In this document: piece after piece, positions 8,993 to 38,561 of the stretch | How the letters are laid out: each line of letters begins with the position of its first letter | Position numbering within the stretch: the first letter of the stretch is position 1 | Assembly (NCBI RefSeq): GCF_003732545.1 | Contig: NZ_AYKF01000066.1 | Location: 1 to 64,000 of the forward strand | Source: Salinisphaera orenii subsp. halophila YIM 95161 | Lineage (GTDB): Bacteria; Pseudomonadota; Gammaproteobacteria; Nevskiales; Salinisphaeraceae | DNA: 64,000 nt | Direction: 5' to 3' | Notes under the pieces: generated by a model | Databases searched by the model: none | What the model was told of the DNA's origin: nothing | Seen by the model: the letters and a program-made list of their open reading frames with translations, nothing else | Program-made: the position numbers and the translations under genes

Positions 8993-9706
8993 ATGCCCCG
9001 CCTGCCCCGCTTCAATCTCGTCGACGTGCCCCAGCACATCATTCAGCGCGGCAATAATCGCCAGGCCTGTTTCTTCGACGAGGACGACTATCTGTTCTAC
9101 CTCGAGTGCCTGCGCGATGCCGCGGCCCGTGCCGGCTGCGACATCCATGCCTATGTGCTGATGACCAACCATGTGCATCTCCTGGCCACACCGCAGCAGA
9201 CGGACGCTGCTTCGCGCATGATGCAGTCGGTCGGGCGCCGGTACGTGCAGCATGTGAATCGGCGCCACCAGCGCACCGGCACGCTCTGGGAGGGCCGCTA
9301 TCGTGCGAGCCTCGTCGAAGCCGAACGCTATCTGTTGACGTGCTATCGCTATATCGAGCTCAACCCGGTCCGGGCGCGCGACATGGCGAATCGGCCCGAC
9401 GGCTATCGATGGTCGAGTTATAGCGCCAATGCCCACGGCATGGGGGACGCCTGGCTGACACCGCATCCGCTCTATCAACGGCTCGGCCGGACCGGCGCCG
9501 AGCGACGGGCGGCGTATCGGGAACTCGTAGCGGAAGGACTCGACTCGGAGGCACTACAGGAGATTCGCAGCTGCACGCGCCAGGGCGTCGTCCTCGGCAG
9601 CGAGGCGTTCCGGGAGCAGATCGAAACGACGTTGAAACAACGTGCCCGCCCCGGCCATCGCGGTCGCCCGAAAAAGCGGAATCAGACATCGGGTGCCGCC
9701 GGATAG
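8993..9706 (+). CDS. REP-associated tyrosine transposase (RAYT, Y1/IS200-like)
   Basis: The 237-residue protein is a single-domain Y1 transposase. It shows PQHIIQRGNNRQACFF, the HUH metal motif TNHVHLL, the region GTLWEGRYRASLVEAERYLL holding the catalytic tyrosine area, and YIELNPVRA. A basic tail RGRPKKRN is common in the family. RAYTs nick and move single-stranded DNA bounded by short palindromic repeats. Two truncated copies with the same leader lie at 4.7-5.1 kb, so this gene or a close relative has been active here. No partner repeat array is visible. Confidence 0.93.
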   Translation: MPRLPRFNLVDVPQHIIQRGNNRQACFFDEDDYLFYLECLRDAAARAGCDIHAYVLMTNHVHLLATPQQTDAASRMMQSVGRRYVQHVNRRHQRTGTLWEGRYRASLVEAERYLLTCYRYIELNPVRARDMANRPDGYRWSSYSANAHGMGDAWLTPHPLYQRLGRTGAERRAAYRELVAEGLDSEALQEIRSCTRQGVVLGSEAFREQIETTLKQRARPGHRGRPKKRNQTSGAAG

Positions 9707-9839
9707 ACGCCCCATCCCCAACGGCTTGATGCGCTGTACGCGTATCTAACCTCTTCTTCCTTTTCCCTACCCTTTACGCCCACCCGATAGATCAAACGAG
9801 ACAGGTGCGCGACCGTCTTCCACAGGATACAATGCGTCC

Positions 9840-10136
9840 ATGCTGATCAAGGATACCGCCGAGTTCACGAAATGGCTTGACGGCCTCAAGGACACCAAGG
9901 GTCGCGCCCGAATTCGCGCCCGTATCGAACGGCTGGCCATGGGCAACCCCGGCCAGCATCGGAAGCTGAAAGGCGACGTCAATGAACTGAAGCTCACCGT
10001 CGGCCCCGGTTATCGAGTTTATTAGACGTATCGCGGCAACGAATTGATCGTGCTGCTTTGCGGCGACGACAAATCTTCGCAGGGCCAGGACATACAACGC
10101 GCGCAGCAACTTGCTGCCGAACTCCAGGAGGCGGTC
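9840..10136 (+). pseudogene. HigB/RelE-like toxin (Gp49 family) with an in-frame amber codon
   Basis: The frame begins MLIKDTAEFTKWLDGLKDTK and continues IRARIERLAMGNPGQHRKL and VGPGYRVY, matching the 'addiction module killer' RelE-fold toxins that cleave mRNA on the ribosome. TAG at 10023-10025 stops it after 61 residues. The same frame resumes as TYRGNELIVLLCGDDKSS and AQQLAAELQEA, the normal C-terminal part, so a single nonsense change is likely. No stop separates the toxin frame from the antitoxin start at 10137. Unless TAG is read through, the toxin lacks its final strands and should be inactive. TTG at 10044 could start a short C-terminal piece. Confidence 0.82.
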
Positions 10137-10442
10137 ATGACTGTTGAACTTGTCGACTACGACGTGGCGGATTACATCAGCGCGCCCGAGGATGCGGCGG
10201 CGTACCTCGACGCCTGTATCGAGGAAGCCGACGGCGACGTGGGCTTTATCGCCAAGGCGCTGGGTGACATTGCCCGCGCGCGCGGCATGGGGGCCATCGC
10301 CGACAAGACCGGGCTGGGACGTACGAGCCTGTACAAGACACTTTCCGCTGACGGCAAGCCGACGCTCGAAACCACGCTCAGGGTCTGCGAAGCGTTGGGC
10401 ATTCGGTTGCGCGCAGAAGTCCGTACGGACGACGCCGCGTAG
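10137..10442 (+). CDS. HigA-like antitoxin with HTH (addiction module antidote)
   Basis: The 101-residue protein starts MTVELVDYDVADYISAPED and has a helix-turn-helix in MGAIADKTGLGRTSLYKTLS followed by PTLETTLRVCEALGIRL, characteristic of the antidote family paired with Gp49-type toxins. It would bind the toxin and repress the operon. The ATG at 10137 follows AGGAGGCGG. It shares its reading frame with the upstream toxin, without a stop between them, so readthrough of the toxin amber codon would yield a toxin-antitoxin fusion. The antitoxin itself looks intact. Confidence 0.88.
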   Translation: MTVELVDYDVADYISAPEDAAAYLDACIEEADGDVGFIAKALGDIARARGMGAIADKTGLGRTSLYKTLSADGKPTLETTLRVCEALGIRLRAEVRTDDAA

Positions 10443-11002
10443 CGGAGCCAGCGCCGCCACGCGGGATAAAACGGCGACGGCAACAGCGATCGGGAGGCAT
10501 TTTCTGCTAGGCGCTGAAGATCTTTCCTCACATAGGCGGCCCGAGCAGCGTACACGCCATGGCCAACCATGGCCTCTTAATACGCCTTCAGCCTGTCGAA
10601 GCGACACGCGATCGCCCCAGACTGTTCTTGATTCAGTAGGCCGTTGTAATGTCTCGGCCAACCCGATTGGCTCCGTCCCCTTTTCGGAAGCACCGTTTCA
10701 GAAGCGCGCTCTCCGTCTTGGGTAACGGTAGCGCACACAATCATAGCCCGCTCGCGTCGCATTCATTGGGGCCCTGGCCCCGACCTCGGTCGGCGATCGA
10801 GCACCAGCGGCAGCACGCCCGCAGGTGACCACCGCTGACGTTGCACGTCACTTCGCCCGCATTACATAAACTGTCGCGGCAACGTTCCTGAATAACCGCC
10901 GGATTTCCGCGCCGACCCATTGCGCCCGCGCGGCTGTGGCGCGATGATATGAGCCGTTGGGGCACCGGATTTCACGATCTGCGTCTTTCGCAGGATGACG
11001 TC
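10443..11002. other. Intergenic, no gene seen
   Basis: No supported gene was found. There is a GGGGCC-CT-GGCCCC hairpin at 10768-10781 and a direct repeat of CCATGGCC near 10558-10575. The open frames here are short and lack recognisable domains. Confidence 0.6.
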
Positions 11003-11719
11003 ATGGCTAGGCGAGTGGCTTACATTGCGACGGCGGCCGCGATTGCGGGCGTATCCGCGGGCGCGGCCGGTGCGTTCATCTGGCACGATCGCCCGGCGTC
11101 CTCGGCCCATGCGACCAATGCCAACCTGGCCGCCTATCCCGACAGCCCGGCACCCGCACCCGCTCCGTCACAGCACGCAGCGGCATCCGATACCGGGACG
11201 ACCAAAACGCACTCGGCATCCGCCGCGCCTCTCCGGCTGGACACGTCGCTGGGCCCGGCGGACGAGGCGGGCTCGGAGCCGCCCGCGCCGGCACGCTCGA
11301 CACGCGATTTAGCCGCGGATATGGCCGCACAGTCGCTGCGGGTACCCGAACGGGGCGCAGACGGTCAGTTCATCCTGCCGGAGGAACTGAACCTGCGTGT
11401 GCCGGACGATGTCTCCACTGCGGAGCTGGTCACGCAGGGCTTTCGCCAGGACGCGGCGAACGCCTCCGAGGCGGATCTGTCGTCCGATCCGGAGGTCGCG
11501 TTCGACCTGGCCGCCCCCGACCGCCCCACGCCGCAGGTTGAGTCCTACAATCTGTTCAATCCCGAATACGGGCTGCGCGGTTTCATGAAACAGGGGTGGA
11601 TCAGCCAGAACGTGGGGGTCCAGGGCGGACTCGGCCTGAACGACGATCGCCGCGTCGAGACGGAGGAAGGCTTTCGCGACGACATTGCCGTCGGCATGGG
11701 TGTGATTCTGGCGTTCTAG
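11003..11719 (+). CDS. Hypothetical secreted or membrane-anchored protein with an outer-membrane-like C-terminus
   Basis: I do not recognise a family. The 238-residue protein has a positively charged start and a hydrophobic stretch (MARRVAYIATAAAIAGVSA) that could be a signal peptide or anchor. A low-complexity Pro/Ala/Ser-rich region (residues ~40-105) follows, then an acidic part and a C-terminal segment ending DDIAVGMGVILAF. A final Phe with alternating hydrophobic residues resembles the last strand of outer-membrane proteins. The ATG at 11003 has AGGA eight bases upstream; an earlier start at 10949 would hide the signal. No neighbour gives context. Confidence 0.55.
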   Translation: MARRVAYIATAAAIAGVSAGAAGAFIWHDRPASSAHATNANLAAYPDSPAPAPAPSQHAAASDTGTTKTHSASAAPLRLDTSLGPADEAGSEPPAPARSTRDLAADMAAQSLRVPERGADGQFILPEELNLRVPDDVSTAELVTQGFRQDAANASEADLSSDPEVAFDLAAPDRPTPQVESYNLFNPEYGLRGFMKQGWISQNVGVQGGLGLNDDRRVETEEGFRDDIAVGMGVILAF

Positions 11720-16795: not shown

Positions 16796-17803
16796 TCAAA
16801 CCTCGTAATAACTGCGATACCAGTCGACGAAGTTCCGCACACCTTCCTCGACCGACACTTCGGGACGGTAGCCAACGGCTTCGAACAAACTGTCGACATC
16901 GGCGTGCGTGGCCTCGATATCCCCAGCCTGCATCGGCAGGTATTCCTTCTCCGCCCGGACTCCGAGACACTCCTCGAGACGCTCGATGTAACGCATTAGC
17001 GGCACCGGCTGACCGTTGCCGATGTTGTAGATCCGCCACGGCGCGCTGCTGGTGCCCCGCGTCGGTGTGTCACTGGACCATGTCGGATCGGGGGTGGCGA
17101 CCACGTCGACCGTTCTGACGACGCCTTCGGCGATATCGTCGACATAAGTAAAATCCCGGCGATGCTTGCCGTGGTTGAACACCGGGATCGATTCGCCGGC
17201 CAGCATCTTCTGCGTGAACAGAAACAGCGCCATGTCAGGCCGGCCCCAGGGTCCGTACACGGTGAAGAACCGCAGGCCGGTGGTGGGCAGTTCGTAAAGA
17301 TGCGAGTAGGAATGCGCCATGAGTTCCGTGGCCCGCTTGGATGCCGCGTAGATTGCGGCCGGATGGTCGGCATCTCCCTGCGGCGAGAACGGCATGTCCG
17401 TGGACAGCCCGTATGCAGAACTCGTCGACGCATAGACGAGGTGCTCGACAGCGTTATAGCGACATCCCTCGAGCACGTTCAACGTTCCCGTGACATTACT
17501 GTCGATGTAGTCATGCGGGTGCGTGATGGAATGACGGACCCCGGCCTGGGCCGCGAGATGCACCACCCGATCGAATTTCTCGCGCGCGAAGAGTGTTTCC
17601 ATCTCCTGCCGGTCGGCGATATTCAGGTGGACGAACGTGAACCGCTCGTCCGGCGCGAGACGATCGAGCCGTGCCTGCTTCAGGGACGGGTCGTAGTACG
17701 GGTCCATGTTATCGACTCCGACCACCACATCGCCGCGATCGAGCAGGCGTTGTGCGACATGGTAGCCGATGAATCCCGCGGCCCCCGTCACCAGTATCTT
17801 CAT
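16796..17803 (-). CDS. UDP-glucuronate 4-epimerase-like NAD-dependent epimerase
   Basis: The 335-residue SDR starts MKILVTGAAGFIGYHVAQRL and carries HLAAQAGVRHSI, STSSAYG, YAASKRATE and FFTVYGPWGRPDMALFLF, the pattern of CapI/LspL-like UDP-GlcA (or UDP-HexNAcA) 4-epimerases. It is last in a minus-strand series directly after a UDP-sugar dehydrogenase, so the pair likely makes UDP-galacturonate-type precursors, possibly acetamido forms. A WbpP-type activity cannot be excluded by eye. Confidence 0.87.
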   Translation of the reverse strand: MKILVTGAAGFIGYHVAQRLLDRGDVVVGVDNMDPYYDPSLKQARLDRLAPDERFTFVHLNIADRQEMETLFAREKFDRVVHLAAQAGVRHSITHPHDYIDSNVTGTLNVLEGCRYNAVEHLVYASTSSAYGLSTDMPFSPQGDADHPAAIYAASKRATELMAHSYSHLYELPTTGLRFFTVYGPWGRPDMALFLFTQKMLAGESIPVFNHGKHRRDFTYVDDIAEGVVRTVDVVATPDPTWSSDTPTRGTSSAPWRIYNIGNGQPVPLMRYIERLEECLGVRAEKEYLPMQAGDIEATHADVDSLFEAVGYRPEVSVEEGVRNFVDWYRSYYEV

Positions 17804-17917
17804 GCGTTGAAACCTTGTGTTTTAAGCCGTGGCGATGCGTTCACGTCACCGGTATTTTCTGCGGTGTGACATGGCCAGCAGCGGGAAAACAGTCGTCACC
17901 CGGACTCGCCCGGGCCG

Positions 17918-19192
17918 CTATAGTCGCCCGTCGGTCACCTCGGCGGGGAATGTGTACTTGACGTCGTAGATCACATGCGTCGGCTTGCAATAACCGCGGA
18001 TCGCGTCGATGCCCATGGCCTGGAACTCGCGATGACCGACGGCGATCAACGCAGCGTCGTAGGCGCCCGTTTCCGGTGTTTCCACCAGCGTCATGCCGTA
18101 CTCGTGCTCAAGCTTGGCCGAATCCGCCCAGGGGTCGTAGATGTCGACGTGCACATCCATGGCCTGCAACTCGCGAACGATATCCACCACACGCGTATTG
18201 CGGATGTCCGGGCAGTTCTCCTTGAACGTCACGCCCATCAGCAGCACGCGCGAGCCGTTGACCTGGATTTTGCGGCGCAGCATCACGCGGATGAGCTCGT
18301 GGGTGATGTATCGGCCCATACCGTCATTGATGCGCCGACCGGCGAGAATCATTTCCGGATGATAGCCGACCGCCTGCGCGCGGAAGGTCATGTAGTACGG
18401 ATCCACACCGATGCAGTGACCGCCCACCAGACCCGGACGAAACGGTAGAAAATTCCATTTCGTACCCGCCGCCTCGAGCACCTCCTGCGTATCGATGCCC
18501 AGACGCGAGAATATCTTCGACAGCTCGTTGACCAGCGCCACGTTGATGTCGCGCTGGATATTCTCTATGACCTTGGCCGCTTCGCCGACCGCAATGCTCG
18601 ATGCACGATGGATACCCGCCGGAACGATCGGGCTGTAAAGTTCGACCAGCCGATCCGCCACCGCATCGGTGGAGCCCGCGACCACTTTCATGATGTTGGC
18701 CAACCCGTGCGCGGCATCGCCCGGATTCGCCCGTTCCGGACTGTAACCCACGAAGAAGCCCTCGTTGTAGGTCAGCCCCGATATCGAAGCGAGAATGGGC
18801 ACGCAGCGCTCTTCCGTGGCGCCGGGGTAGACGGTCGACTCGTACACCACGATGTCGCCGTCGTTGAGATAGGGGGCGATCGACCGTGACGCCGCCTCAA
18901 GCGGCCCGAAATCCGGGACTTTCGCATCAGTCACCGGCGTGGGCACGGTCACGACATAAACATTCGCCGCCGCCAGATCGTCCGCGACGGACGAGAACCG
19001 AAGCGAACTCGCCGCCGCCAGTTCCGCGGATGCCACTTCGCGCGTGAAATCGTAGCCCTCGGACAACTGGGCGATCCGGGTGGCATCGATATCGAAACCC
19101 AGGGTTTCGTGGCGTTTTCCGAACGCGACCGCCAGCGGCAAGCCGACGTAGCCCAGACCGATCACCGCAATGCGGGTCTCACCCTTGGTCAT
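17918..19192 (-). CDS. UDP-sugar 6-dehydrogenase, TviB/WbpO-like
   Basis: The 424-residue enzyme has the NAD fold IAVIGLGYVGLPLAVAFG, the signature GFFVGYSPERANPGD of UDP-HexNAc dehydrogenases (TviB/WbpO/WbpA type), and GLVGGHCIGVDPYYM with the catalytic Cys. It would oxidise UDP-N-acetylhexosamine to the uronic acid. I use the ATG at 19192, which follows AGAG; an upstream start would add 17 residues. The epimerase gene lies 114 bases downstream. With AsnB upstream, uronamide formation is possible. Confidence 0.9.
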   Translation of the reverse strand: MTKGETRIAVIGLGYVGLPLAVAFGKRHETLGFDIDATRIAQLSEGYDFTREVASAELAAASSLRFSSVADDLAAANVYVVTVPTPVTDAKVPDFGPLEAASRSIAPYLNDGDIVVYESTVYPGATEERCVPILASISGLTYNEGFFVGYSPERANPGDAAHGLANIMKVVAGSTDAVADRLVELYSPIVPAGIHRASSIAVGEAAKVIENIQRDINVALVNELSKIFSRLGIDTQEVLEAAGTKWNFLPFRPGLVGGHCIGVDPYYMTFRAQAVGYHPEMILAGRRINDGMGRYITHELIRVMLRRKIQVNGSRVLLMGVTFKENCPDIRNTRVVDIVRELQAMDVHVDIYDPWADSAKLEHEYGMTLVETPETGAYDAALIAVGHREFQAMGIDAIRGYCKPTHVIYDVKYTFPAEVTDGRL

Positions 19193-19348
19193 TATTAATT
19201 CTCTGCAAGGAAGAAAACGATCACGGTAAAGCGACGCATGCAATGCCGCGGCGAGACGCGGATTATGAGGCTGTCATGCGGCTTTCGCAAACTATCCGCA
19301 GCCTATCCAGCGGAGGCGATATCTCATGTCCGTCCGATTCGCTCAGTC

Positions 19349-21334
19349 TTAGACCCGAGCGCGCTCCAGCCATGCTTCGAACATCAGAATCGACCAGATC
19401 TCGCGTTTGCCCGCAACGCCCCTGCCATCCAGAAATCCGGCCCACATGCGGCGGACACGGTCCACATCCAGGAACCCTTCGGCCGCCAGTCGCTCCGGTG
19501 ACAGCAGCGATTCCGCCCATTCCCGCAGCGGACCATGCAGCCAGTGCTCCAGCGGCACGTCGAAGCCCTGCTTGGGGCGTTCCACGAGACGACGCGGCAC
19601 ATGGCGATAGAGCACCTCGCGTAGCGGCCACTTGCCTTCCGGATGACGCATTTTCAGTTCCAACGGCAACGATGCGGCGAACTCGACGACGCGATGGTCC
19701 AGCAGCGGCACGCGCGCCTCGAGCCCAACCGCCATGCTGGCGCGGTCCACCTTGGTGAGGATGTCACCCGGTAGATAGCCGACAAGGTCGAGATACATCA
19801 TGCGTTCGACGAAACTGTCCAGATCCGGCAACCGCGACCGGTCCGCCACGAACCCCTGCGGTTCGCGACCGCCAATGACCAACGCTTCCGGGTCCGGCCA
19901 ATACGAGATCAGCTTCAGATACAGCTCTTCAGGGGCGTTCATGCCCATGATGTCAGCGAGCAGCGCGATTTTGTCCGCCGGATCCCGCATGCGAAAGCGT
20001 GCGGGCATGACTTCGAGCATCGCGCCAAGCGCGCGGCCCCAGAGTCGAGGTGACGCGCGCAGTACACGTTCGAGCGAGCGGCGCGCCATCGAGGGCATTC
20101 CGCCGACACGCCCCCACACCCGCTGACTCCAGAAATAGCGGCTGTAGCCACAGAACAGCTCGTCGCCGCCGTCACCGGACAGACTGACGACGACATCGCG
20201 ACGGGCCAGCCGCGAGACGAGGTAGGTGGGTATCTGGGAGAAATCCGCGAACGGCTCGTCGTACATCTCCGGCAGATGCGGGATGACCTGCTGGGCCTCG
20301 GCAGGGCTGACATACAACTCGGAATGCCGCGTGCCGAGATATTCCGCTACCGCCTTGGCGTGCGGGGCTTCCTCGTAGTGCCCCTCCTCGAACCCGATCG
20401 AGAACGTCCGTACCGGCTGCTCCGACTGCGCTTGCATGAGCGCGACGACCGTGGACGAATCCACTCCGCCCGAGAGGAAGGCGCCCAGCGGCACGTCGGC
20501 GACCATACGGCTGCCCACCGCATCGCGGAGCAGCGCTTCGAGTTCGTCCACGGCCTCGTCCGGGGTACCGGCAAAGCGATTCGCCGCACCGCGTTCGACC
20601 ACATCGCGGGCGGACCAGAAGCGCCGGACCAGGTCCTGCTGATGATCGACGCCGGCGCCCGGCGCCTGCCCCGCCTGTGTCTGATCCAGCGTGAGAATGG
20701 CGCCGGGCGGCAGCTTGTACACGTTCTCGTGAATCGAATACGGCGCGGGAATGTGGTTATGGCGCAGGTAGAGCGTGAGGGCGTCGCGATTCACTGCCGC
20801 ATCGAAACCGGGGGCGGCCCGCAACGCCTTGAGCTCGGAGCCGAACAGGAACAGTCCACCCGACCAGCCGTAATAGAGCGGTTTGATGCCCACCCGATCG
20901 CGCGCCAGGGAGAGCTGGCGGGTCTCGCGGTCCCAGAGACCGAGCGCAAACATGCCGTTCGCCCGTTGGAGCGCCGCATCGAGCCCCCAGTGATCGATCG
21001 CGGCGAGCAGCACTTCCGTATCCGAGTGACCGCGAAACTGCCACCCGGCCCCGACCAGCACGTCACGGATATCACGAAAATTGTAGATCTCGCCGTTGTA
21101 GACGAGCACATAGCGCCCGCTCTGCGAAACCATGGGCTGATGGCCCTCGGGCGAAAGATCCAGGATCGACAGACGACGGTGCCCGAGCGCCAGCCCCACC
21201 TGTGCCTCCTGGTGCGCCCCCTCGTCGTCCGGGCCACGACAGGCGAGGGTCGGCGTCATGTCGCCTATGGCCGCGAGCGCGCGTTCGGGGCCGAGTCGAT
21301 GGCGCGCGTCCCAAAGGCCGGTCAATCCACACAT
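19349..21334 (-). CDS. asnB: Glutamine-hydrolysing asparagine synthetase-like amidotransferase
   Basis: The 661-residue protein begins MCGLTGLWD, so the N-terminal Cys nucleophile of the class II glutaminase is present, followed by CRGPDDEG and YNGEIYNF. The synthetase domain has the PP-loop SGGVDSSTV and SLSGDGGDELFCGYSRYF. Such enzymes occur often in polysaccharide loci, where some amidate uronic acids rather than aspartate. Its place between GT4 and TviB genes supports that. It is three bases from the next gene upstream, inside one transcription unit. Confidence 0.92.
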   Translation of the reverse strand: MCGLTGLWDARHRLGPERALAAIGDMTPTLACRGPDDEGAHQEAQVGLALGHRRLSILDLSPEGHQPMVSQSGRYVLVYNGEIYNFRDIRDVLVGAGWQFRGHSDTEVLLAAIDHWGLDAALQRANGMFALGLWDRETRQLSLARDRVGIKPLYYGWSGGLFLFGSELKALRAAPGFDAAVNRDALTLYLRHNHIPAPYSIHENVYKLPPGAILTLDQTQAGQAPGAGVDHQQDLVRRFWSARDVVERGAANRFAGTPDEAVDELEALLRDAVGSRMVADVPLGAFLSGGVDSSTVVALMQAQSEQPVRTFSIGFEEGHYEEAPHAKAVAEYLGTRHSELYVSPAEAQQVIPHLPEMYDEPFADFSQIPTYLVSRLARRDVVVSLSGDGGDELFCGYSRYFWSQRVWGRVGGMPSMARRSLERVLRASPRLWGRALGAMLEVMPARFRMRDPADKIALLADIMGMNAPEELYLKLISYWPDPEALVIGGREPQGFVADRSRLPDLDSFVERMMYLDLVGYLPGDILTKVDRASMAVGLEARVPLLDHRVVEFAASLPLELKMRHPEGKWPLREVLYRHVPRRLVERPKQGFDVPLEHWLHGPLREWAESLLSPERLAAEGFLDVDRVRRMWAGFLDGRGVAGKREIWSILMFEAWLERARV

Positions 21335-24960: not shown

Positions 24961-25815
24961 TCAGAAGCTCGAAAATGCGGTGCCCGTGCGAGCCACGAGG
25001 CTTTCTGCTGTCGACAGCCGGTGTCGACTGGGTCTTATCTCGCCGCTGAAATCACGCAACTTCGCATTCCCAACGAAGTGCAGGTTCGATTTGTTTGCCG
25101 CCAATTCGTCAACAAGAGCACCGCGCTCGCCAACGAATTCGAAAATACCATCGAGCACCGTTTGTGTTTCGTTCGCAAGATCATCGTAAGAAACCCTGAT
25201 GTAAGGGGCTTCTCGCTCGAGACGCGCGGCGAGGAGATGATACGCCCGCCAACTCGCGATACTTTGCACGAATTGGATTTTCCCCGGCTGCTTCTTGGAT
25301 CTCGACTTCGCGAAATCGCCCGCGTCCCCGGCGAGATGAATGATGCCGCCCACGAGTTCGGGGGCGAAAGCGAGAAACGCCTTGACCCGCGCTATGTTCT
25401 TGACGCCATCCACGAAAACACGTGACTCGTCTTGCTGGCCGCTTTCCACGCCACGCAGGAACTCCCTGTATTGAGAAACGAAACGGCGCTGATCCGCGGC
25501 TGCGATGCGGCGCCGCAGCGATTGCGGCGACTGCAATAAGTAAGACAGGCGCCCGACCGTGTCGCTCCCGCCGGGCGGCTGGACCCAGCCACGATAGAAC
25601 GCGTCAGGCTCCACGCGTGTGGTTACTTCACGGTCCACGCGCTGCCAGAACGGGCAGTCACGCACCTGTTTTCCGCAGCCACAGTTTTCCGGCAGATGCT
25701 GCTTAGGATACGTATCACCGAGCGCCGTGATCGCAGGATGGGCTCCCAGCAGACGCGCCAGCAGTGTCGCGCCGTGGAAACTGGGACAAAGCACAAAAAT
25801 CACTTTCTTGAACAT
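24961..25815 (-). CDS. Sulfotransferase family protein
   Basis: The 284-residue protein opens with VIFVLCPSFHGATLLARLLG, which takes the place of the PAPS-binding 5'-PSB loop, then HPAITALGDTYPK and a Cys-rich stretch NCGCGKQVRDCPFWQRV often seen in bacterial and cyanobacterial members. A YDDLANETQTVLDGIFEFVG segment matches the family C-terminal half. It would move sulfate from PAPS to a sugar. The loop is atypical (His-Gly where Lys/Arg-Ser is usual), so activity is less certain. It lies in the GT operon between a methyltransferase and a GT4. Confidence 0.75.
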   Translation of the reverse strand: MFKKVIFVLCPSFHGATLLARLLGAHPAITALGDTYPKQHLPENCGCGKQVRDCPFWQRVDREVTTRVEPDAFYRGWVQPPGGSDTVGRLSYLLQSPQSLRRRIAAADQRRFVSQYREFLRGVESGQQDESRVFVDGVKNIARVKAFLAFAPELVGGIIHLAGDAGDFAKSRSKKQPGKIQFVQSIASWRAYHLLAARLEREAPYIRVSYDDLANETQTVLDGIFEFVGERGALVDELAANKSNLHFVGNAKLRDFSGEIRPSRHRLSTAESLVARTGTAFSSF

Positions 25816-28385: not shown

Positions 28386-29252
28386 ATGCCGATGACGCTG
28401 CGGGCCTCGGCGAAACGACGCCGCGCTATCGGTTACCTCGCGGGCAGCATCGGTACCGTACTGATTGCCTTATCGCTGCTCGGGGACTTCACCCCCCTCG
28501 GGCAGTATTCGAACGACGCACCCAGAAGCTGGGAGTCCTTCGATCCGGAGAAGGTCACGCGTGAGCGCAGCCTTGCGGCTCTCAGGCACGATGCTCGTAC
28601 ACGGCTCGATGATTTCGAATCGGCCACCTCGGAGGCGCAAATGCTAGCGCTCTTCGAGACGACGACCACGCGATTCAGTCACAGCGACGGCGCCCGCTAC
28701 ACCATCTTCAGCAACTGGATTCTGGCCGCAGCCGGCCTGCTGAACAGAAATTTCTCGGTCATACGCGACCCGGAACGCATGGTGGCCGGCGGGCATTCGC
28801 TGATCTGCAGCCAATCGTCGTACCTGCTCCTGACACTGGCTCGGCAGGAAGGAATCAAGGTCCGGCATGTCGGGCTCGACGGGCATGTCGTCATGGAAGC
28901 ATGGTACGACGGCGCCTGGCACATGTTCGATCCCGACCAGGAAGTGATCGCACGAACGGAAGACGGCAGTATCGCCAGCGTCGACGATCTGGCTGAAAGG
29001 TCGGACCTGCTGGAAAGCGCCTACGCGCAGCCGAATCAACGCAACCTGATCCCGATCATCGCTTCGCAGGCGAACAACTCGTTCGTGTCCTACCCCGAAG
29101 GTGCGCGCTTCGTCTGGACGGCAGATGTTCTCGCTCATGTCGAGCGCTCGACGGCCGTGCTGAAATACGTGCTTCCGCTACTACTCGTTCTGGTAGGGTT
29201 TGCGCTCCTGAAGGGCGCAGCGTGGCCGGTCTCTCGCCAACACCATCGCTGA
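28386..29252 (+). CDS. Transglutaminase-like protein with two membrane anchors
   Basis: The 288-residue protein has one N-terminal membrane segment (residues ~15-33) and one near the C-terminus (~262-282), with a periplasmic-sized domain between them. That domain holds GGHSLICSQSSYLLL, then RHVGLDGHVVMEAWYDG and HMFDPDQEVI, spaced like the Cys-His-Asp triad of the transglutaminase-like fold. Members may act as peptidases, amidases or cross-linkers; the actual reaction is unknown. It begins a plus-strand group with a GT4 and a GT2, so it may act on the polymer, its amino substituents or an associated protein. Confidence 0.7.
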   Translation: MPMTLRASAKRRRAIGYLAGSIGTVLIALSLLGDFTPLGQYSNDAPRSWESFDPEKVTRERSLAALRHDARTRLDDFESATSEAQMLALFETTTTRFSHSDGARYTIFSNWILAAAGLLNRNFSVIRDPERMVAGGHSLICSQSSYLLLTLARQEGIKVRHVGLDGHVVMEAWYDGAWHMFDPDQEVIARTEDGSIASVDDLAERSDLLESAYAQPNQRNLIPIIASQANNSFVSYPEGARFVWTADVLAHVERSTAVLKYVLPLLLVLVGFALLKGAAWPVSRQHHR

Positions 29253-30587: not shown

Positions 30588-31607
30588 ATGCGCCCTAAAG
30601 TTTCAGTATGTTGCGCTTGGCATGAGCGCCCCGAAGCCGTTCGGATAACACTTGACGCCCTGCTATCCCAGAATTTCGAGGACTACGAGGTGATCGTTGT
30701 CAACGATGGCAGCACGTCTCCCGAGGTCGCCATGGAACTCGACCGCTACCGATCCGAGCGCGTAACCGTCGTCCATCAGACAAATACGGGCGCGCCGGGA
30801 GCACTGAATCACGCCATCAGCCTCGCCCGCGGCCCTTATATCGCGGTTCATGATGCCGGCGACGCATCGCGCCCGGACCGCTTGCAGGAGCAATCCCGCG
30901 CTCTCGACGCCGAACCTTCGCTCGTCGGCGTGGGGTGCTTTACCGAAGACCTGATGGTGCAGGACAACGGCGGCACCACGAGGGAAAAACTCAACGACGA
31001 CAAGCCCGAGCGCCTCAACCACCGCGACTTCCTTGCCCCACGCAACTTTCTATCTGGCGGCGAAGTCATGTTCCGGAAAGAGATCCACCAGAAGGTCGGC
31101 GGGTATCGTTCCGCTTTTCGATACGCTCAGGACCGCGACCTGTGGCTTCGAATGAGCATGCTCGGCGATTTCGGCATCGTGCAGACGATGCTTTACGAGC
31201 GCCGGATATACGCGCAGGGCGTCAAAGCGTCGCTACGAAAATCGATAATGCAGAAACAACTGTCCCATTTCGCCCGCGAATGCGCACAAATGCGCATGCA
31301 GAAGGGCTATGACCTTGTCGATATTTTTAGTGACCAAGCACCAATGTATCGTGCAAGAACGAAAACTGCAGCCGACAATCTCGCCAGGTACGCGTTATGG
31401 TATTTGTACCACGACGATCATGAATCCGCGAATATTCTCGCAGATTTGGCAATTCGCGAACGGGTTACACTTCGGTCGGTCGGGATCAATGCTATCGCGA
31501 AAACCACAACGGTCTCCAATGGCCGACACGAAGCCATCAAATCCCTGCTGCGACGCAAGATAAGTAAATTCGATATGCAAAAGCCGGAAACACTGATCCG
31601 ACGCTAA
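30588..31607 (+). CDS. Glycosyltransferase family 2
   Basis: The 339-residue GT-A enzyme has the nucleotide-sugar pattern VSVCCAWHERPEAVRITLDA, EVIVVNDGSTSPE and TNTGAPGALNHAI. Where most GT2 enzymes have an Asp-x-Asp metal site (DADD), this one reads HDAGDASRPDR, so only part of the motif remains. GGYRSAFRYAQDRDLWLR matches the acceptor side (ED/RD motif). It ends the plus-strand group and faces the PLP-enzyme gene. Confidence 0.85.
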   Translation: MRPKVSVCCAWHERPEAVRITLDALLSQNFEDYEVIVVNDGSTSPEVAMELDRYRSERVTVVHQTNTGAPGALNHAISLARGPYIAVHDAGDASRPDRLQEQSRALDAEPSLVGVGCFTEDLMVQDNGGTTREKLNDDKPERLNHRDFLAPRNFLSGGEVMFRKEIHQKVGGYRSAFRYAQDRDLWLRMSMLGDFGIVQTMLYERRIYAQGVKASLRKSIMQKQLSHFARECAQMRMQKGYDLVDIFSDQAPMYRARTKTAADNLARYALWYLYHDDHESANILADLAIRERVTLRSVGINAIAKTTTVSNGRHEAIKSLLRRKISKFDMQKPETLIRR

Positions 31608-31645
31608 ATATCCATCAGTGAGCTGGCGACCCGGCGCGCCTTGAG

Positions 31646-32854
31646 TTACTCGAGGAGAATTCTCAAATCATCGAGAATGTAACTAACCGGCTCGTTTCCG
31701 ACCGACAAACGCACGGTACGGAAATCCAGGCCAAGCTCCTGTAACTCCTCAAGCGTCTTACCCCAGTGACTCATGTAGGCCGGTATTTCGATTAGGGTGT
31801 CCACTGAACCAAAACTAGGCGCCATTTTAGTCGAATTCAATCGATTGAATTTATCTTCAAGCTGAACGCTCTCTTCAACTCTGAAGGTAACTACGGAGCC
31901 ACCGTGAAATTGCGTGCGCTCCAACAGCTCCGCCTGATCCCTATTCGCGTTACGCCCGGGGTAGTAAATATCGACCACGGCGCTGCTTTTTTCGAGAAAA
32001 TTGATAACTTGCAAGCAGTTTTCCAGCCCTTTAGCGATACGTATATCGTATGTTCGCAGACTGCGAAAAAGCAGATAGGCACTCAAGTTGTCCAGAATGC
32101 CACCGAAACTGGACCTCGCCGACCAAATCTTTTGATAAATTTCACTATCGGCGCAACTGACGTAACCGGCAAGCAAATCGTTGTGACCGCCGATGTACTT
32201 GGTGCACGACCCGACAATGATATCCGCGAATTCAGCCTGGCCCTTATCATTCACTAACCCCTGAAAAGTATTGTCGTAGATGATTACGGCATTCGGGAAT
32301 TGGCTGCGGATAGCCTCCAGGTCCATCAGTCTTAAAAAGGGGTTGGAGGGGCTTTCCACGAAAACGACCACACCTGACGCATCGGTCGCGTGACGCATCA
32401 GCTCCGACTGATTGCTGACGTTTTCTGTGTAAACGTCGAATCTTTCCGAAAAATCGGAAAGCAGAACAGCAGTCTTTCTATAGAACGACCCAATAGTATA
32501 TATTTTTGAGTTTTTCTTTAGAACGGACCGAAACGCTGCATCAATTGCCGACATACCCGAGTTGAAGAGGACGACATCAGAACCGAGCAGTTTTTCAAAA
32601 TAGCTTTCGAGCTGAAGAACAATCAGACTGGCGTCGCGAGCGTAGCGAACGGAATTGAACTTGTCTTCGTGATATGCACCCAAGCTATCGAGCGATTTGA
32701 ATGCGTATGCCGAAGACAGGTTGAGTGACGGCACGAGAGGCTCACCCTGCAGCGAAATGCCGTCAGGCGCCCCCAACGAACTTCCTGCAGAGTAATGCGC
32801 GTCGTTGAGCAACCCAGTTACGGATCGAGGGCGCGACGATTCATGATCCGCCAT
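31646..32854 (-). CDS. PLP-dependent Cys/Met metabolism family enzyme (trans-sulfuration type)
   Basis: The 402-residue protein follows the cystathionine gamma-synthase/beta-lyase fold: VLFNSGMSAIDAAFRSVL, FVESPSNPFLRLMDL, YDNTFQGL and the PLP lysine in GSCTKYIGGHNDLLAGYVS. Family members make or break C-S bonds at the beta or gamma carbon of amino acids. It lies in a polysaccharide locus and overlaps the downstream end of an asparagine-synthetase-like gene by 14 bp, so a tailored amino-acid substituent is one possibility. I chose ATG 32854 for its GGAG ribosome site. Base composition is less GC-rich than that of the cluster around it. Confidence 0.8.
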   Translation of the reverse strand: MADHESSRPRSVTGLLNDAHYSAGSSLGAPDGISLQGEPLVPSLNLSSAYAFKSLDSLGAYHEDKFNSVRYARDASLIVLQLESYFEKLLGSDVVLFNSGMSAIDAAFRSVLKKNSKIYTIGSFYRKTAVLLSDFSERFDVYTENVSNQSELMRHATDASGVVVFVESPSNPFLRLMDLEAIRSQFPNAVIIYDNTFQGLVNDKGQAEFADIIVGSCTKYIGGHNDLLAGYVSCADSEIYQKIWSARSSFGGILDNLSAYLLFRSLRTYDIRIAKGLENCLQVINFLEKSSAVVDIYYPGRNANRDQAELLERTQFHGGSVVTFRVEESVQLEDKFNRLNSTKMAPSFGSVDTLIEIPAYMSHWGKTLEELQELGLDFRTVRLSVGNEPVSYILDDLRILLE

Positions 32855-34649
32855 CAACGGGCTCCGTTAAGCTGTTGAAAATAGTTCCAAGCTGAATGAC
32901 ATTGAGTTTCGTTCTGATATCGAAATCTTGCATCGATATATCAAGAGAGTTTTGTTCAAGAATACCGACTCGGTATGACGACGCCAACCATCTTCGCGAA
33001 CTCTCCTTGCGCCATTTTTCCGTTTTTACCAGCTTGGACCAATCGGCCCAGACAATGTGCTTCGAGCGTACACGCTCTTCGCCGCGAACGCGACTTGCTA
33101 CGGCCTGGAGCCGCGGGAGCAAAACGCGATTCACAACCAGCCCGTAGTACGGGTAAAAACCCTTGCCGTTAGGCACGCGCTTAGTTTTACCGAGATATGG
33201 CTTCATTGCAGCCAGAAAGATACGTCGATTGATCTTCCAGTCAAATGGGATTTCGGAGGCCAGCTTCACTATTCTTTTAGAGAAAAAAGGTTCGTGAATA
33301 GCCATCAATCGCCGATTCGACGTATAGTGCGACGAGCCCGACGCCATACTCGATGGCCACATTCGTGCCCATTCCTCGACACTGTCGGCCTGGCGAAACT
33401 GAGAAATTCTGCGGCGATGCGAATTTCGCCGCTCAATAATCGCACTTCGAATCTCCGGCTTAAGCACCTTCCATGCGGCCGAATCGATTCCGTGTAGCAC
33501 CTGGTCGCTCTGTCTGTCATCGATAGACGTATCAGACTGAAACCAAGCAGGAAGTATCAACTCTCGCGTGGTCTTTCTGTGAGGCGAATGTATGCCCTTG
33601 AGCAATCTGTCAGCTCCGAACCCGCCCAATACTACAGGCGCTTGAGAAAGCTTATATTTCTCGGCCACCCCTAACGAGTGAGCCTGAAAGAACTGAGAAT
33701 TCGAGCCAATCAACGAGCACGCGGCGTCGATGTTATCAATGTACTGCGTTGGTGAGCGCTTGGCCAGAGTGAAACGAGCACCATAGGCGGCACTGACCGT
33801 GGCGGCTATCTCGGTTTCACGGGTAACGTCATCAGCAAACACAACCGCGTCGCAATGCCCTCCTCCAGGCATTGCGCCAAGCACGGCACGCGAATCTTCA
33901 CCAGCACTGACGAGTACAGTGGGTCTGTCACCATCCGAAAACGAGGCCCTCGCGGATTCCTTGAGTGCCAACCGTAACCATTTCGCGCATCTTCCGAAAC
34001 TATACTTCGGGCTTGGGGTTTCTTCCGGGATCCAGTACGTAACCAGCGTGCGCTCTCCGGATCCCGGATATGTCGCGATCGCTGCCGGCGGCAGCTGCCT
34101 AACCTCTCGATAGCACGAGTAAGGGTACGTCACGACACCGCTTACAAGGAATTCCGCCATCGAGACATGATCCAGCTCACATGAGTTTGCAAGAGCCCCC
34201 ACCGCATCAACGTGGGTACCGACCACGGAGCCTCGATTGTGACGTCCCTCGTAAACCGGAATAAAGGCCATCAAGTCGGTGACTACCGTGACTGTACGTT
34301 TTCGCTGATCGACGAATACAGCCGCGAAAGGGCCGTCCAGATCCTCATCCCACTGCATATGGCCCAGCCGCCAGCGCCGCAAAAGTCGTTGGGCGCGACA
34401 ATTCTCACCGACGCCACACGCCTCGTTTCCAGAGCTCCAGCTGAACCGCGGCCTCCCGATCACGACAGCAATAAAATGCCCGTCGTCAACGAACTCGCTT
34501 GGCGACCACGAGGCTACATAAAAAGCAAGACACCCCCAATCACCCTGAAGGGCATGGACATCGCCCCGGTCGTCGGGATATATATTCCGCAACTTGTCGG
34601 AAAGGCACGTCGACTGACCGAGCTCTGGCGTATAGAGAAAGTCGAGCAT
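32841..34649 (-). CDS. Asparagine synthetase-like protein without the glutaminase cysteine
   Basis: About 602 residues. The N-terminal half keeps traces of the Ntn-type domain (DEDLDGPFAAVFVDQRKRT, DLMAFIPVY) but lacks an N-terminal Met-Cys, so it cannot release ammonia from glutamine by the usual route. The synthetase half has the PP-loop VLVSAGEDSRAVLG in the place of SGGxDS. Relatives without the Cys include beta-lactam and lasso-peptide synthetases, which form amides with an amine on the substrate. The start is unclear (TTG 34658 or ATG 34649). It is co-transcribed with the PLP enzyme that follows. Confidence 0.75.
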   Translation of the reverse strand: MLDFLYTPELGQSTCLSDKLRNIYPDDRGDVHALQGDWGCLAFYVASWSPSEFVDDGHFIAVVIGRPRFSWSSGNEACGVGENCRAQRLLRRWRLGHMQWDEDLDGPFAAVFVDQRKRTVTVVTDLMAFIPVYEGRHNRGSVVGTHVDAVGALANSCELDHVSMAEFLVSGVVTYPYSCYREVRQLPPAAIATYPGSGERTLVTYWIPEETPSPKYSFGRCAKWLRLALKESARASFSDGDRPTVLVSAGEDSRAVLGAMPGGGHCDAVVFADDVTRETEIAATVSAAYGARFTLAKRSPTQYIDNIDAACSLIGSNSQFFQAHSLGVAEKYKLSQAPVVLGGFGADRLLKGIHSPHRKTTRELILPAWFQSDTSIDDRQSDQVLHGIDSAAWKVLKPEIRSAIIERRNSHRRRISQFRQADSVEEWARMWPSSMASGSSHYTSNRRLMAIHEPFFSKRIVKLASEIPFDWKINRRIFLAAMKPYLGKTKRVPNGKGFYPYYGLVVNRVLLPRLQAVASRVRGEERVRSKHIVWADWSKLVKTEKWRKESSRRWLASSYRVGILEQNSLDISMQDFDIRTKLNVIQLGTIFNSLTEPVDGGS

Positions 34650-34942
34650 TAAGTTCAATTTGCGTGACGTTAGAAATTAGGAATTGACGTCGATCAACCA
34701 CAGTGCGACTGAACCGAACTTGCCTGTGCTACCAGTAACTCGAATTGCAGATGGCCGGGTTAGCTGGCGAAGCCATGATTACACTACATGCTAGGTCCAC
34801 TCCATGGACCCATCATATCGACCGCAGCAGGAGTTCTTGCCGAGCCGACTTGCTATGTAATACCGGTCTTGCCCACTCACACTCGATTGGACAACGCGCT
34901 AGTCCAAGCACGGACGGACGCCTCGATGAGAGCGATTAACGA
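34650..34942. other. Intergenic, no gene seen
   Basis: About 290 bases. A perfect 6-bp inverted repeat GGTCCA-CTCCA-TGGACC lies at 34794-34810. No reading frame with homology was recognised. Confidence 0.5.
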
Positions 34943-35716
34943 TCAGTCGAAGCGATTTTTAACACGGCGTCGAAGCGACCTTAAAACGCGCTTTGGGAAT
35001 GAGAAACGCCGACAGGGCTCGATCCCGGTATTGATCACCTCGTGATCCAAATAGCCAAGCGCTTTTTCATGATCCGCCGACTTGGTCGACGCATACCAAA
35101 GCGCATGAGGTAACTGGCCGCGTTTCGCTAGACGCCCTAATATACGCTCATCATCGACCTGACTCGAATCATTACTAGCCCGAAGCGGTGCTGCGTCGGG
35201 CCTGGAGTCGCGCGCTATTCCGACGGACGAAAACAGCTCGTCCCAGCCGTCGCCCTCCTCCCAGCATAGTTCGGAGAACCGTCCCGGCTTGTCGGCAAAA
35301 AAACGCCGCACGGCGTCATTGTGTCGCTCATAGAATTCCACGAATGGATCAGGCGTCGAATGGGGATCCCGCGCGCCGAATACGAGTTCCCAGGTTTCCG
35401 TCGGGCCGTATCGATCGTGATGTTTGCGCATGCTTTCCAGCCACACCTCAGTATTCGTGCGACGCGTGAGCACGAATCGAGCATTCGGGAACTCCTCGTG
35501 TAACTCCTGATAAACGAGCGGCCATGGATAGTCGTCAAATGATTGAAAATCACGCGCCAATTCAATCAATGCAGCGGGCATCCGACGCTTGGCAAGATAA
35601 GCACCTGATAGATACGGCCCTGTCAGATGCCGAAAACCCAGCTCCTGCATGCAGGCGCCAAATGTTGTAGTTCCGGTTTTGCCAAGGCCAACACAAAATA
35701 TCTTTTGTTGTCGCAA
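34943..35716 (-). CDS. Sulfotransferase family protein (Sulfotransfer_4-like)
   Basis: The protein (257 residues from this start) opens KIFCVGLGKTGTTTFGACMQ, a clear PAPS 5'-phosphosulfate loop, and has NARFVLTRRTNTEVWLESM, the 3'-phosphate-binding region with Arg. I favour TTG 35716 since AGGATTAAT precedes it; TTG 35749 would add 11 residues. Specificity is unknown, but a sugar acceptor is likely from the location. Only 87 bases from the divergent sulfotransferase gene at 35804. Confidence 0.85.
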   Translation of the reverse strand: MRQQKIFCVGLGKTGTTTFGACMQELGFRHLTGPYLSGAYLAKRRMPAALIELARDFQSFDDYPWPLVYQELHEEFPNARFVLTRRTNTEVWLESMRKHHDRYGPTETWELVFGARDPHSTPDPFVEFYERHNDAVRRFFADKPGRFSELCWEEGDGWDELFSSVGIARDSRPDAAPLRASNDSSQVDDERILGRLAKRGQLPHALWYASTKSADHEKALGYLDHEVINTGIEPCRRFSFPKRVLRSLRRRVKNRFD

Positions 35717-35803
35717 AATTAATCCTATATTGACGTCAGGATCACGCAAACACTAAAATAGTGCACAATCCAAAAGCACACAAAAACAGGGAGAGCTGCG
35801 GGG

Positions 35804-36688
35804 ATGTGGGTTGGATCGTTATTTCGGCATCATATATCACGGGCAAAACGAATAGCTCAGAACAAACCGCCTTATGACGGAAATTTTTGGGTTTCCGAAA
35901 AACATAAACTTATATACTTAAGCATACCCAAAAATGCCAATTCCTATTTCAAATCGCTTTTTCTATACAATCATCCCGTCGCGTTCGACTATGTTCCCGA
36001 GCTAGAGACAGCCAACGAATATCTATCTCGAACAGCTAAGAAAGGTGAGCTTACTGCCACTTCGGCGACAATCCTGCGTGACAAAGGATATACCAAGTTC
36101 GTCATCCTAAGAGATCCGCTTGCACGTCTCGTAAGCGCATATCTGGACAAGGTGGTGAACAGCGCTCGGATGTCTCGGCATGATGAAAGAAGGGGAAAAG
36201 CCTATCATTCCGACGGTTTTTTTAATGAAATAAGCCAAACACTCGGCGTAAAAGTCGATCGCGACACCTTGAGTTTTAGTCAGCTATTGCGCTATCTGGA
36301 AAAGACATCTCCTTTTCTAGTGGACAAGCATTATAGGGCACAATGGATTTTTCTGAATCGAATACCATTCGACTACTACGGGACTATGGAAAATATTCCA
36401 GATGTTCTCGATTTTTTGAAATCACGCGGACTCAGAACACATTCGTTTACCGCACGCAGCCCTAAACGGACGCCTTATACAAAACCTCTGCCGTCCGGAA
36501 GCAACCGAAATATCGCAGATATGCCTGCCTCCGACTTGCGCCTTTGCGACCGTTACCCGCCTGCTCAAGAGTTCTTCAAACAGCCAGCAACACTTGAACG
36601 TGCAGCCAAACTTTACAAATCGGATATTTCAATTTTTCTAAAAGTTCAAGCGCTCGATAAAGAAGCTTACTTTAAGCGTTACCGGTAA
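35804..36688 (+). CDS. Carbohydrate sulfotransferase family 2 protein
   Basis: The 294-residue protein matches the Sulfotransfer_2 pattern: the PAPS loop SIPKNANSYFKSLFLYN and the 3'-phosphate motif KFVILRDPLARLVSAYLDKV. FLVDKHYRAQWIFLNRIPFDY also fits this group, known for glycan sulfation (chondroitin- and heparan-type in animals, and related bacterial enzymes). AGGGAGAG precedes the ATG. It is AT-richer than its neighbours, which suggests a separate origin, and it lies between oppositely oriented genes. Confidence 0.87.
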   Translation: MWVGSLFRHHISRAKRIAQNKPPYDGNFWVSEKHKLIYLSIPKNANSYFKSLFLYNHPVAFDYVPELETANEYLSRTAKKGELTATSATILRDKGYTKFVILRDPLARLVSAYLDKVVNSARMSRHDERRGKAYHSDGFFNEISQTLGVKVDRDTLSFSQLLRYLEKTSPFLVDKHYRAQWIFLNRIPFDYYGTMENIPDVLDFLKSRGLRTHSFTARSPKRTPYTKPLPSGSNRNIADMPASDLRLCDRYPPAQEFFKQPATLERAAKLYKSDISIFLKVQALDKEAYFKRYR

Positions 36689-36716
36689 AAACAATAAAAT
36701 CAGAAATTCTCGAGTA

Positions 36717-38561
36717 TCAACTCGCCTCTCCGGAGGCCAGCCTGCTAAAAGAATTGTCCGCTTGCACCAGATCGGAATAAGATCCGCAGGCCGCAATCCG
36801 GCCGTCTTGAAGCATAAATACGCGATTACACTTTTCGACCGTCGTAAGGCGATGCGCGATCACAATAAGTGTTCGGCCACCGCGCATGGCATCCAATTCG
36901 TTCACAATGGCCTTTTCAGTTGTATTATCGAGGGCCGACGTCGCCTCGTCCAAAACAATGACTTTCGGGTCATGATACAACGCTCGCGCAATGCCGATTC
37001 TCTGCCGCTGGCCGCCCGACATACGGACACCCCGTTCGCCGACCACAGTCTCATAGCCGTGAGGCAATCGGTCGACTATGAACTCATGGATATTGGCAAT
37101 ACGGGCGGCACGTTCGACGGCGGCCAGGTTAATCTGAGCGGCGGCCAGGCCGTATGCAATATTGCTAGCAATGGAACTGTCGGTCAGGTAGATGTCCTGA
37201 GGCACGTAACCTAGATTTGCCTGCCATGCCGAACGGTTCCGCGAGTCGATCGGCACGTCATCAACCAGGAGTTGTCCTCCTGTCGGTTCGAGCAAACCGA
37301 GAATTATGTCCGCCAGCGTGGTTTTGCCGGCGCCCGTAGTGCCCGTCAAAGCCACGAAGCTGTTTCGAGGTATAGTCATGTCGATGCCAGCCAGCGACGC
37401 TCGATCTGCGCCGGGATAACTGTACGTGAGAGACGCCAGTCGCACTTCTCTTTCAAACGGCATTTTGGCGCGCGCATCCACGGACGCACTGTCGGACGAT
37501 GGGCGATTTGCCGACCGCGACGCATCGGCGTTCCCGCTATTCGCGATGCTATCTGAAACATCCGCGACCAGCGTGTTCAACACCGGTTGATTGAACCGCC
37601 ACTTCGCAACACCCTGATACACCTGCTGCAAAGCTGGCAAAAGGCGGTACGCCGCGACTACAAATGCACTCACAGTCGGCAGAACTGCCTGCATGTCATA
37701 GCCTGAACTAAGCAGGTAGAGCAGAACCAGCATCACCGTGCCGAATGCAATGCTCTCGATGATGAACTTTGGTATCTGACTGAAAACCTGATTCTTTGCA
37801 TTTGCTCGCGCAAACGATTCTGCGGCGGGCTCGTAGCGTCTCAAAAACGCCTCCTCCCGACCACAGACCTTGACTTCTTTTATGCTTCCAAAGGCTTCGC
37901 TGACCGCCTTGAAGCGCTGACTGTTGGCTCGCATACGCTGATCGCCGATCCGCAGCAACGATCTGCGGATGGTGAGATAGACCATGCAATAGGCAAAGGC
38001 AAAAATTACAGCGACAGCGATCGCCATTACAGGATTCAGCCAGACCAGGAACCCAACGATAAAAACGACCGTGATGCCGAACGCAGTGGCTTGAAGCAAA
38101 GGCATCAGGACGCCATTTGCGAACTGCTGCGATTCCTGAAGAATATTCTTCCCGATATCCGCGGAATTGCGGTTGAGAAATTTTTCGTACGGCTGACGCA
38201 AGTAGGCGGCTAGAAGTCGACCCGATATGCGGTGCTGCACCCCCCAGGCAAAATGCGTCATCAACCAAATCGTGAACGCTGTAAACAGATTGCTACCGAC
38301 CAGCACGATCAGCAACAGCGCACCGACAAACATTACGAACATGGATCTCGACTCGAAGCCGAGAATCTCGTAAACCCATCGCAGCAGCGTATTGTCGGGC
38401 AGACCAGTGGACTGTGACAGCAGGGATACAAAAGGAAGAATCACGCCAACGCCGACGACCTGCAACACGCCCATCATGAGCATGGCAAACATAACCCATG
38501 TGAATCGACGCCTCTCAGCAGTCGAGAACAACGCCAGGATCTCTGCGAAGGATTTGAGCAT
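36717..38561 (-). CDS. ABC transporter, fused permease-ATPase (MsbA/PglK-like flippase)
   Basis: The 614-residue half-transporter has six N-terminal membrane helices and a C-terminal ATPase with Walker A ALTGTTGAGKTTLADIILG (~residues 398-416), the signature RMSGGQRQRIGIARAL (~515) and Walker B VIVLDEATSALD. Resemblance to PglK and its place before wzc suggest that it flips a lipid-linked oligosaccharide. This region lacks a Wzx, so it may replace one. A polypeptide exporter is less likely, as no protease or peptide gene is near. Confidence 0.88.
   Translation of the reverse strand: MLKSFAEILALFSTAERRRFTWVMFAMLMMGVLQVVGVGVILPFVSLLSQSTGLPDNTLLRWVYEILGFESRSMFVMFVGALLLIVLVGSNLFTAFTIWLMTHFAWGVQHRISGRLLAAYLRQPYEKFLNRNSADIGKNILQESQQFANGVLMPLLQATAFGITVVFIVGFLVWLNPVMAIAVAVIFAFAYCMVYLTIRRSLLRIGDQRMRANSQRFKAVSEAFGSIKEVKVCGREEAFLRRYEPAAESFARANAKNQVFSQIPKFIIESIAFGTVMLVLLYLLSSGYDMQAVLPTVSAFVVAAYRLLPALQQVYQGVAKWRFNQPVLNTLVADVSDSIANSGNADASRSANRPSSDSASVDARAKMPFEREVRLASLTYSYPGADRASLAGIDMTIPRNSFVALTGTTGAGKTTLADIILGLLEPTGGQLLVDDVPIDSRNRSAWQANLGYVPQDIYLTDSSIASNIAYGLAAAQINLAAVERAARIANIHEFIVDRLPHGYETVVGERGVRMSGGQRQRIGIARALYHDPKVIVLDEATSALDNTTEKAIVNELDAMRGGRTLIVIAHRLTTVEKCNRVFMLQDGRIAACGSYSDLVQADNSFSRLASGEAS

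Follow-up and report, generated by a model that had tools for sequence, protein, structure and literature searches.

The window analysed here is a 64,000-nucleotide stretch of a Salinisphaera orenii subsp. halophila contig (NZ_AYKF01000066.1), and it includes a locus whose genes are annotated as glycosyltransferases, a Wzy-like protein, Wzc, two Wza-like proteins, an ABC transporter and sulfotransferases. Within this locus lie two overlapping genes, one for a PLP enzyme of Cys/Met metabolism and one for an asparagine synthetase homologue that has lost its glutaminase motif (Table 1). A first-pass annotation of this DNA had spoken of a sulfated-polymer locus, a description that stands at the level of annotation, with two clear sulfotransferases and one weak match among the glycan genes. 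Between glycosyltransferase genes, positions 28386-29252 encode a 288-amino-acid protein that by eye has hydrophobic stretches at both ends and that has no Pfam or NCBIfam match. Scans with Rfam and for promoters and terminators returned nothing informative.

Table 1. Features of the window discussed in the text, with the evidence for each.
Feature	Position	Strand	Evidence and remarks
TviB-like UDP-HexNAc 6-dehydrogenase	17918..19243	-	scores 565.9 bits with the TviB model, below its cut-off of 592
Canonical glutamine-dependent AsnB / WbpS-like amidotransferase, a separate enzyme	19349..21334	-	MCG start, YNGEIYN, SGGVDSS
Weak sulfotransferase match	24961-25815		
Cys/Met-metabolism PLP enzyme, cystathionine gamma-synthase / methionine gamma-lyase fold	31646..32854	-	PF01053, core residues, AlphaFold model
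Overlap of both reading frames	32841..32854	-	14 bp; GGAG 7 nt upstream of the PLP ATG
Asparagine synthetase homologue, Cys-less, glutaminase motif lost, PP-loop SAGEDSR	32841..34649	-	PF00733, residue mapping
Sulfotransferase (Sulfotransfer_4)	34943..35749	-	75 bits; upstream of the synthetase homologue, same strand, possibly same transcript
Sulfotransferase (Sulfotransfer_2)	35804..36688	+	68 bits; divergent; lowest-GC gene of the segment

The coordinates and motifs first given for the two genes are right. The PLP gene begins with an ATG at 32854, its stop ends at 31646 and its product has 402 amino acids, while the synthetase homologue begins with an ATG at 34649, has its stop at 32841-32843 and is 602 amino acids long. 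Both open reading frames (402 and 602 codons) are intact and match known families, and they are not chance frames. The overlap that had been claimed for them is present in both frames and, together with the ribosome-binding site just before the PLP start, makes translational coupling of the two genes likely. Co-expression is well supported by this arrangement, and to that extent the earlier description of the genes as coupled holds; comparison with other genomes lends no support to a coupling of function.

The PLP enzyme matches PF01053 (Cys/Met metabolism PLP enzymes) with 226 bits against a gathering score of 27. When it is aligned with nine relatives, Y71, R73, S99, D194, K219 and R382 are invariant and Y125 is nearly so, and the family's roles are thereby retained: the Schiff-base lysine (K219, the trans-sulfuration-type lysine noticed in the first-pass annotation), the pyridine Asp, the Tyr/Arg phosphate contacts, the stacking Tyr and the carboxylate Arg. 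The residue that follows the active-site Tyr is an Arg where the family has a Gly. Structure prediction gave a fold of the cystathionine gamma-lyase (CGL), cystathionine gamma-synthase (CGS) and methionine gamma-lyase (MGL) type, with a pLDDT of 70.5, a pTM of 0.74 and residues 1-68 unreliable. Foldseek retrieved structures of these same three enzymes at E values of about 1e-28, and the leading PDB matches superimpose on the model over 324-336 residues (Z about 35, rmsd 2.2-3.1). None of the NCBIfam equivalog cut-offs for CGS, CGL, MGL or CBL is reached (best 210 against 477 bits; MGL 185 against 550 bits), and the scores therefore do not distinguish lyase from replacement chemistry. The enzyme shares its fold, the PLP lysine and the core residues with the PF01053 family, whereas identity to any member is about 30% and the N-terminal 40 residues are unlike those of the others. 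Other members of the family encoded by this genome share 24-26% identity with the PLP enzyme, which is therefore not a recent copy of one of them.

The synthetase homologue is a more divergent protein, whose match to PF00733 (Asn_synthase) is weak (31.6 bits against a cut-off of 21). As the first-pass annotation had noted, it carries a PP-loop, SAGEDS, at residues 248-253 (S248, G250, D252 and S253, with A249 in place of the usual Gly) and has no N-terminal Cys; inspection of the sequence and alignment likewise found no glutamine-binding Arg and no NGE or YNGEIYN-type motif. The change from Gly to Ala is unique to this protein among 37 aligned sequences. Across six divergent relatives S248, G250, D252, S253, R254, E278, R298 and D347 are invariant, and the ATP site is probably kept; with the PP-loop, E278 and D347 retained, use of ATP by this enzyme is plausible. 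The acceptor side appears changed. F344 aligns with Glu348 of AsnB and with Tyr348 of the beta-lactam synthetase 1jgt, the catalytic Tyr of that enzyme, and the equivalent position in five divergent relatives holds Trp (in the closest of them), Phe, Cys, Leu and Leu. Neither the E348 nor the E352 position of AsnB is conserved in these relatives, and D384 and K449 of AsnB are placed differently by two alignments, so that formation of an amide, which would be the proposed activity, is not assured. K496 aligns with the catalytic Lys (443 in 1jgt) in one alignment and not in another, and among the relatives no Lys is conserved at that position. An AlphaFold model built from two sequences reached a pLDDT of 33 and was discarded.

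This protein was also compared with related families. From E. coli AsnB (PDB 1ct9) it retains the synthetase domain with the PP-loop and the equivalents of E278 and D347, together with a residual N-terminal domain ending in LDGPFA...D, but it differs from that enzyme in having neither the N-terminal Cys nor the Arg/Asn/Glu residues that bind glutamine, and in having Phe and Arg for E348 and E352. Scores against the models for glutamine-hydrolysing asparagine synthase (TIGR01536, 57.4 against 267.1 bits), the XrtA/PEP-CTERM amidotransferase (TIGR03108, 38.4 against 816.9 bits) and the lasso-peptide and ikarugamycin-type cyclases (NF033535, 24.1 against 525 bits; NF033561, 42.8 against 300 bits) are all below cut-off. 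The sole PDB match of the single sequence, a weak one (E 0.004), is the beta-lactam synthetase 1jgt, which like carbapenam synthetase CarA (1q15) is without a working glutaminase and whose GYGAD motif resembles the GFGAD of our protein; the gene contexts of both, however, are unlike the one described here. The Cys-less enzymes that form amides or lactams, which had been offered as an analogy, are a loose one, since the Tyr of the beta-lactam and carbapenam synthetases is absent and the group has no conserved catalytic Lys. WbpS and the XrtA-associated amidotransferases (TIGR03108) are AsnB-family proteins of polysaccharide clusters, as is the synthetase homologue, but the match to this kind in the window is a separate gene, and the synthetase homologue is without glutaminase motifs. 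Plasmids of haloarchaea (for example Halorientalis and Haladaptatus) encode 'asparagine synthase-related' proteins that share an SGGxDSR loop and unconserved AsnB catalytic positions with it, at 19-21% identity and in other gene contexts. The glutaminase-free SGGxDSR homologues form a divergent group for which we know of no described activity.

Close relatives of the synthetase homologue are few, and the two that we found are both in glycan clusters. One (L002/L045/L116), on a contig that is labelled Endozoicomonas sp. G2_2 (NZ_JAGHQU010000004.1), belongs to the same genus, has 28% identity and adjoins an FkbM methyltransferase gene, with glycosyltransferase-like reading frames beyond; the other (L145; about 27% identity, motif SGGEDSRAV) comes from another family of the class and overlaps a flippase gene, followed by methyltransferase, glycosyltransferase, polymerase-like and sugar-transferase genes. 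The L145 copy (9447-11033, with DUF7411 as its best Pfam match) starts well inside the glutaminase domain, most of which is missing, and the domain thus seems dispensable in this group. An APS kinase gene lies 8 kb from this copy in the same cluster. An exact-peptide scan of 84,980 genomes returned no close orthologue with the synthetase homologue of the window alone and one with an alignment of two sequences, and tblastn against plasmids returned distant relatives only.

Neither of these two relatives has a Cys/Met PLP gene nearby, and none was found in any of the 59 Asn_synthase-family neighbourhoods that were read besides the one in the window, those of the two relatives included. They comprise sets of 40 and 15 and four plasmid loci; most cover about 10 kb on each side, some stop short at the end of a contig, and many hold ordinary AsnB. 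Close relatives of the PLP enzyme were likewise absent from 369 genomes of the class, 398 of the phylum and 61 near genomes, samples that partly overlap and in which the best matches were generic enzymes at about 32% identity. The plasmid search again gave generic PLP enzymes, and its single full-length match, from Azospirillum, adjoins sulfur genes (encapsulin/cysteine desulfurase, cysE and methionine transport) and not a glycan locus. The pair, which the first-pass annotation had proposed to look for in other genomes, was thus seen nowhere else in samples that are a small part of known genomes, the search being non-exhaustive and leaving out archaeal genomes; absence from other genomes is the result that the same annotation had named as one that would refute its reading. 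A search of the literature for the two enzymes together in polysaccharide clusters found nothing relevant.

GC content sets these genes apart from their surroundings. At 31.6-36.7 kb, the two overlapping genes and those of the two clear sulfotransferases have GC of 0.44-0.54 and GC3 of 0.42-0.58, against about 0.60-0.65 and 0.68-0.78, respectively, in most flanking genes. Low GC in this segment suggests that the four genes were recently acquired as a cassette. The dip itself spans 31000-37000 of the window. We tentatively favour the reading that the two overlapping genes form a translationally coupled tailoring cassette in an exopolysaccharide locus, in which a glutaminase-free ATP-PP-loop enzyme is joined by a PLP enzyme that supplies an amine or ammonia. 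The overlap with its ribosome-binding site, the intact PLP core, the predicted fold, the invariant PP-loop, the presence of relatives in glycan clusters and the low GC support this reading, while the 59 loci without a PLP gene and the diverged AsnB catalytic positions speak against it. These last two, and the low GC as well, would fit chance neighbours in an acquired segment, co-transcribed yet serving unrelated steps, with the synthetase homologue non-catalytic or engaged in another PP-loop activity. The overlap of one gene's stop with the other's start, a good ribosome-binding site there, two intact frames and PP-loop residues that stay invariant over large divergence argue against chance; we nevertheless hold it to be nearly as likely as the cassette.

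A second group of genes bears on what the pair might do. An epimerase, the TviB-like dehydrogenase and the canonical AsnB (TIGR01536, 469 bits; TIGR03108, 564 bits) lie in a row at 16796-21334, likely as a HexNAc-uronamide module in which the dehydrogenase may provide a HexNAc uronic acid. Deletion of the WbpS-type enzyme PGN_1234 of P. gingivalis, which is needed for glucuronamide, abolishes the uronamide (PMC7468200), and the literature search on AsnB-like amidation of uronic acids also brought up a putative asparagine synthase, noted in PMC12407052. Based on the analogy with the P. gingivalis enzyme, the canonical AsnB is the obvious candidate if a uronic acid is amidated here, and it would be a better one for uronamide formation than the synthetase homologue.

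Methionine and cystathionine gamma-lyases release ammonia, and this offers one way in which the pair could cooperate: ammonia from a PLP lyase would take the place of the lost glutaminase activity, for use by the synthetase homologue in amidating a carboxylate. The PF01053 family includes such lyases, they are among the best PDB matches of the PLP enzyme, and the glutaminase motifs are indeed lost. Given that the two close relatives lost the same motifs with no PLP neighbour, and that the locus already has a glutamine-dependent AsnB, we consider ammonia supply improbable. The most specific form of the cassette explanation is the pathway put forward in the first-pass annotation, in which beta/gamma replacement by the PLP enzyme would yield an amino acid that the Cys-less enzyme then links through an amide to a uronic acid of the polymer. 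It draws on the gene overlap, the dehydrogenase in the same locus and the retained PP-loop; that the pair was not found elsewhere in the samples searched, and that the Tyr of the known Cys-less synthetases and a conserved catalytic Lys are both missing, makes us think it unlikely. We have similar doubts about the wider form, a two-enzyme decoration in which the PLP enzyme would make an unusual amino acid (or ammonia) and a glutaminase-free PP-loop ligase, whose active site differs from those of AsnB and beta-lactam synthetase, would couple this product to a sugar acid in a sulfated exopolysaccharide.

Overall, we propose that the cassette is lineage-specific, was probably acquired recently and sits inside an exopolysaccharide locus. 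Its glutaminase-free synthetase homologue would probably activate a carboxylate, glycan-linked or free, with ATP and pass it to a nitrogen nucleophile, and the PLP enzyme would supply a small amine-bearing product or ammonia; we infer both the shared pathway and every substrate in it. If the pair does work together, it would represent a hitherto unknown route by which bacterial polysaccharides receive amino acids or amides. Regardless of the pair, glutaminase-free SGGxDSR synthetase homologues recur in glycan clusters, and this locus, with a canonical amidotransferase alongside, provides a test case for the group.
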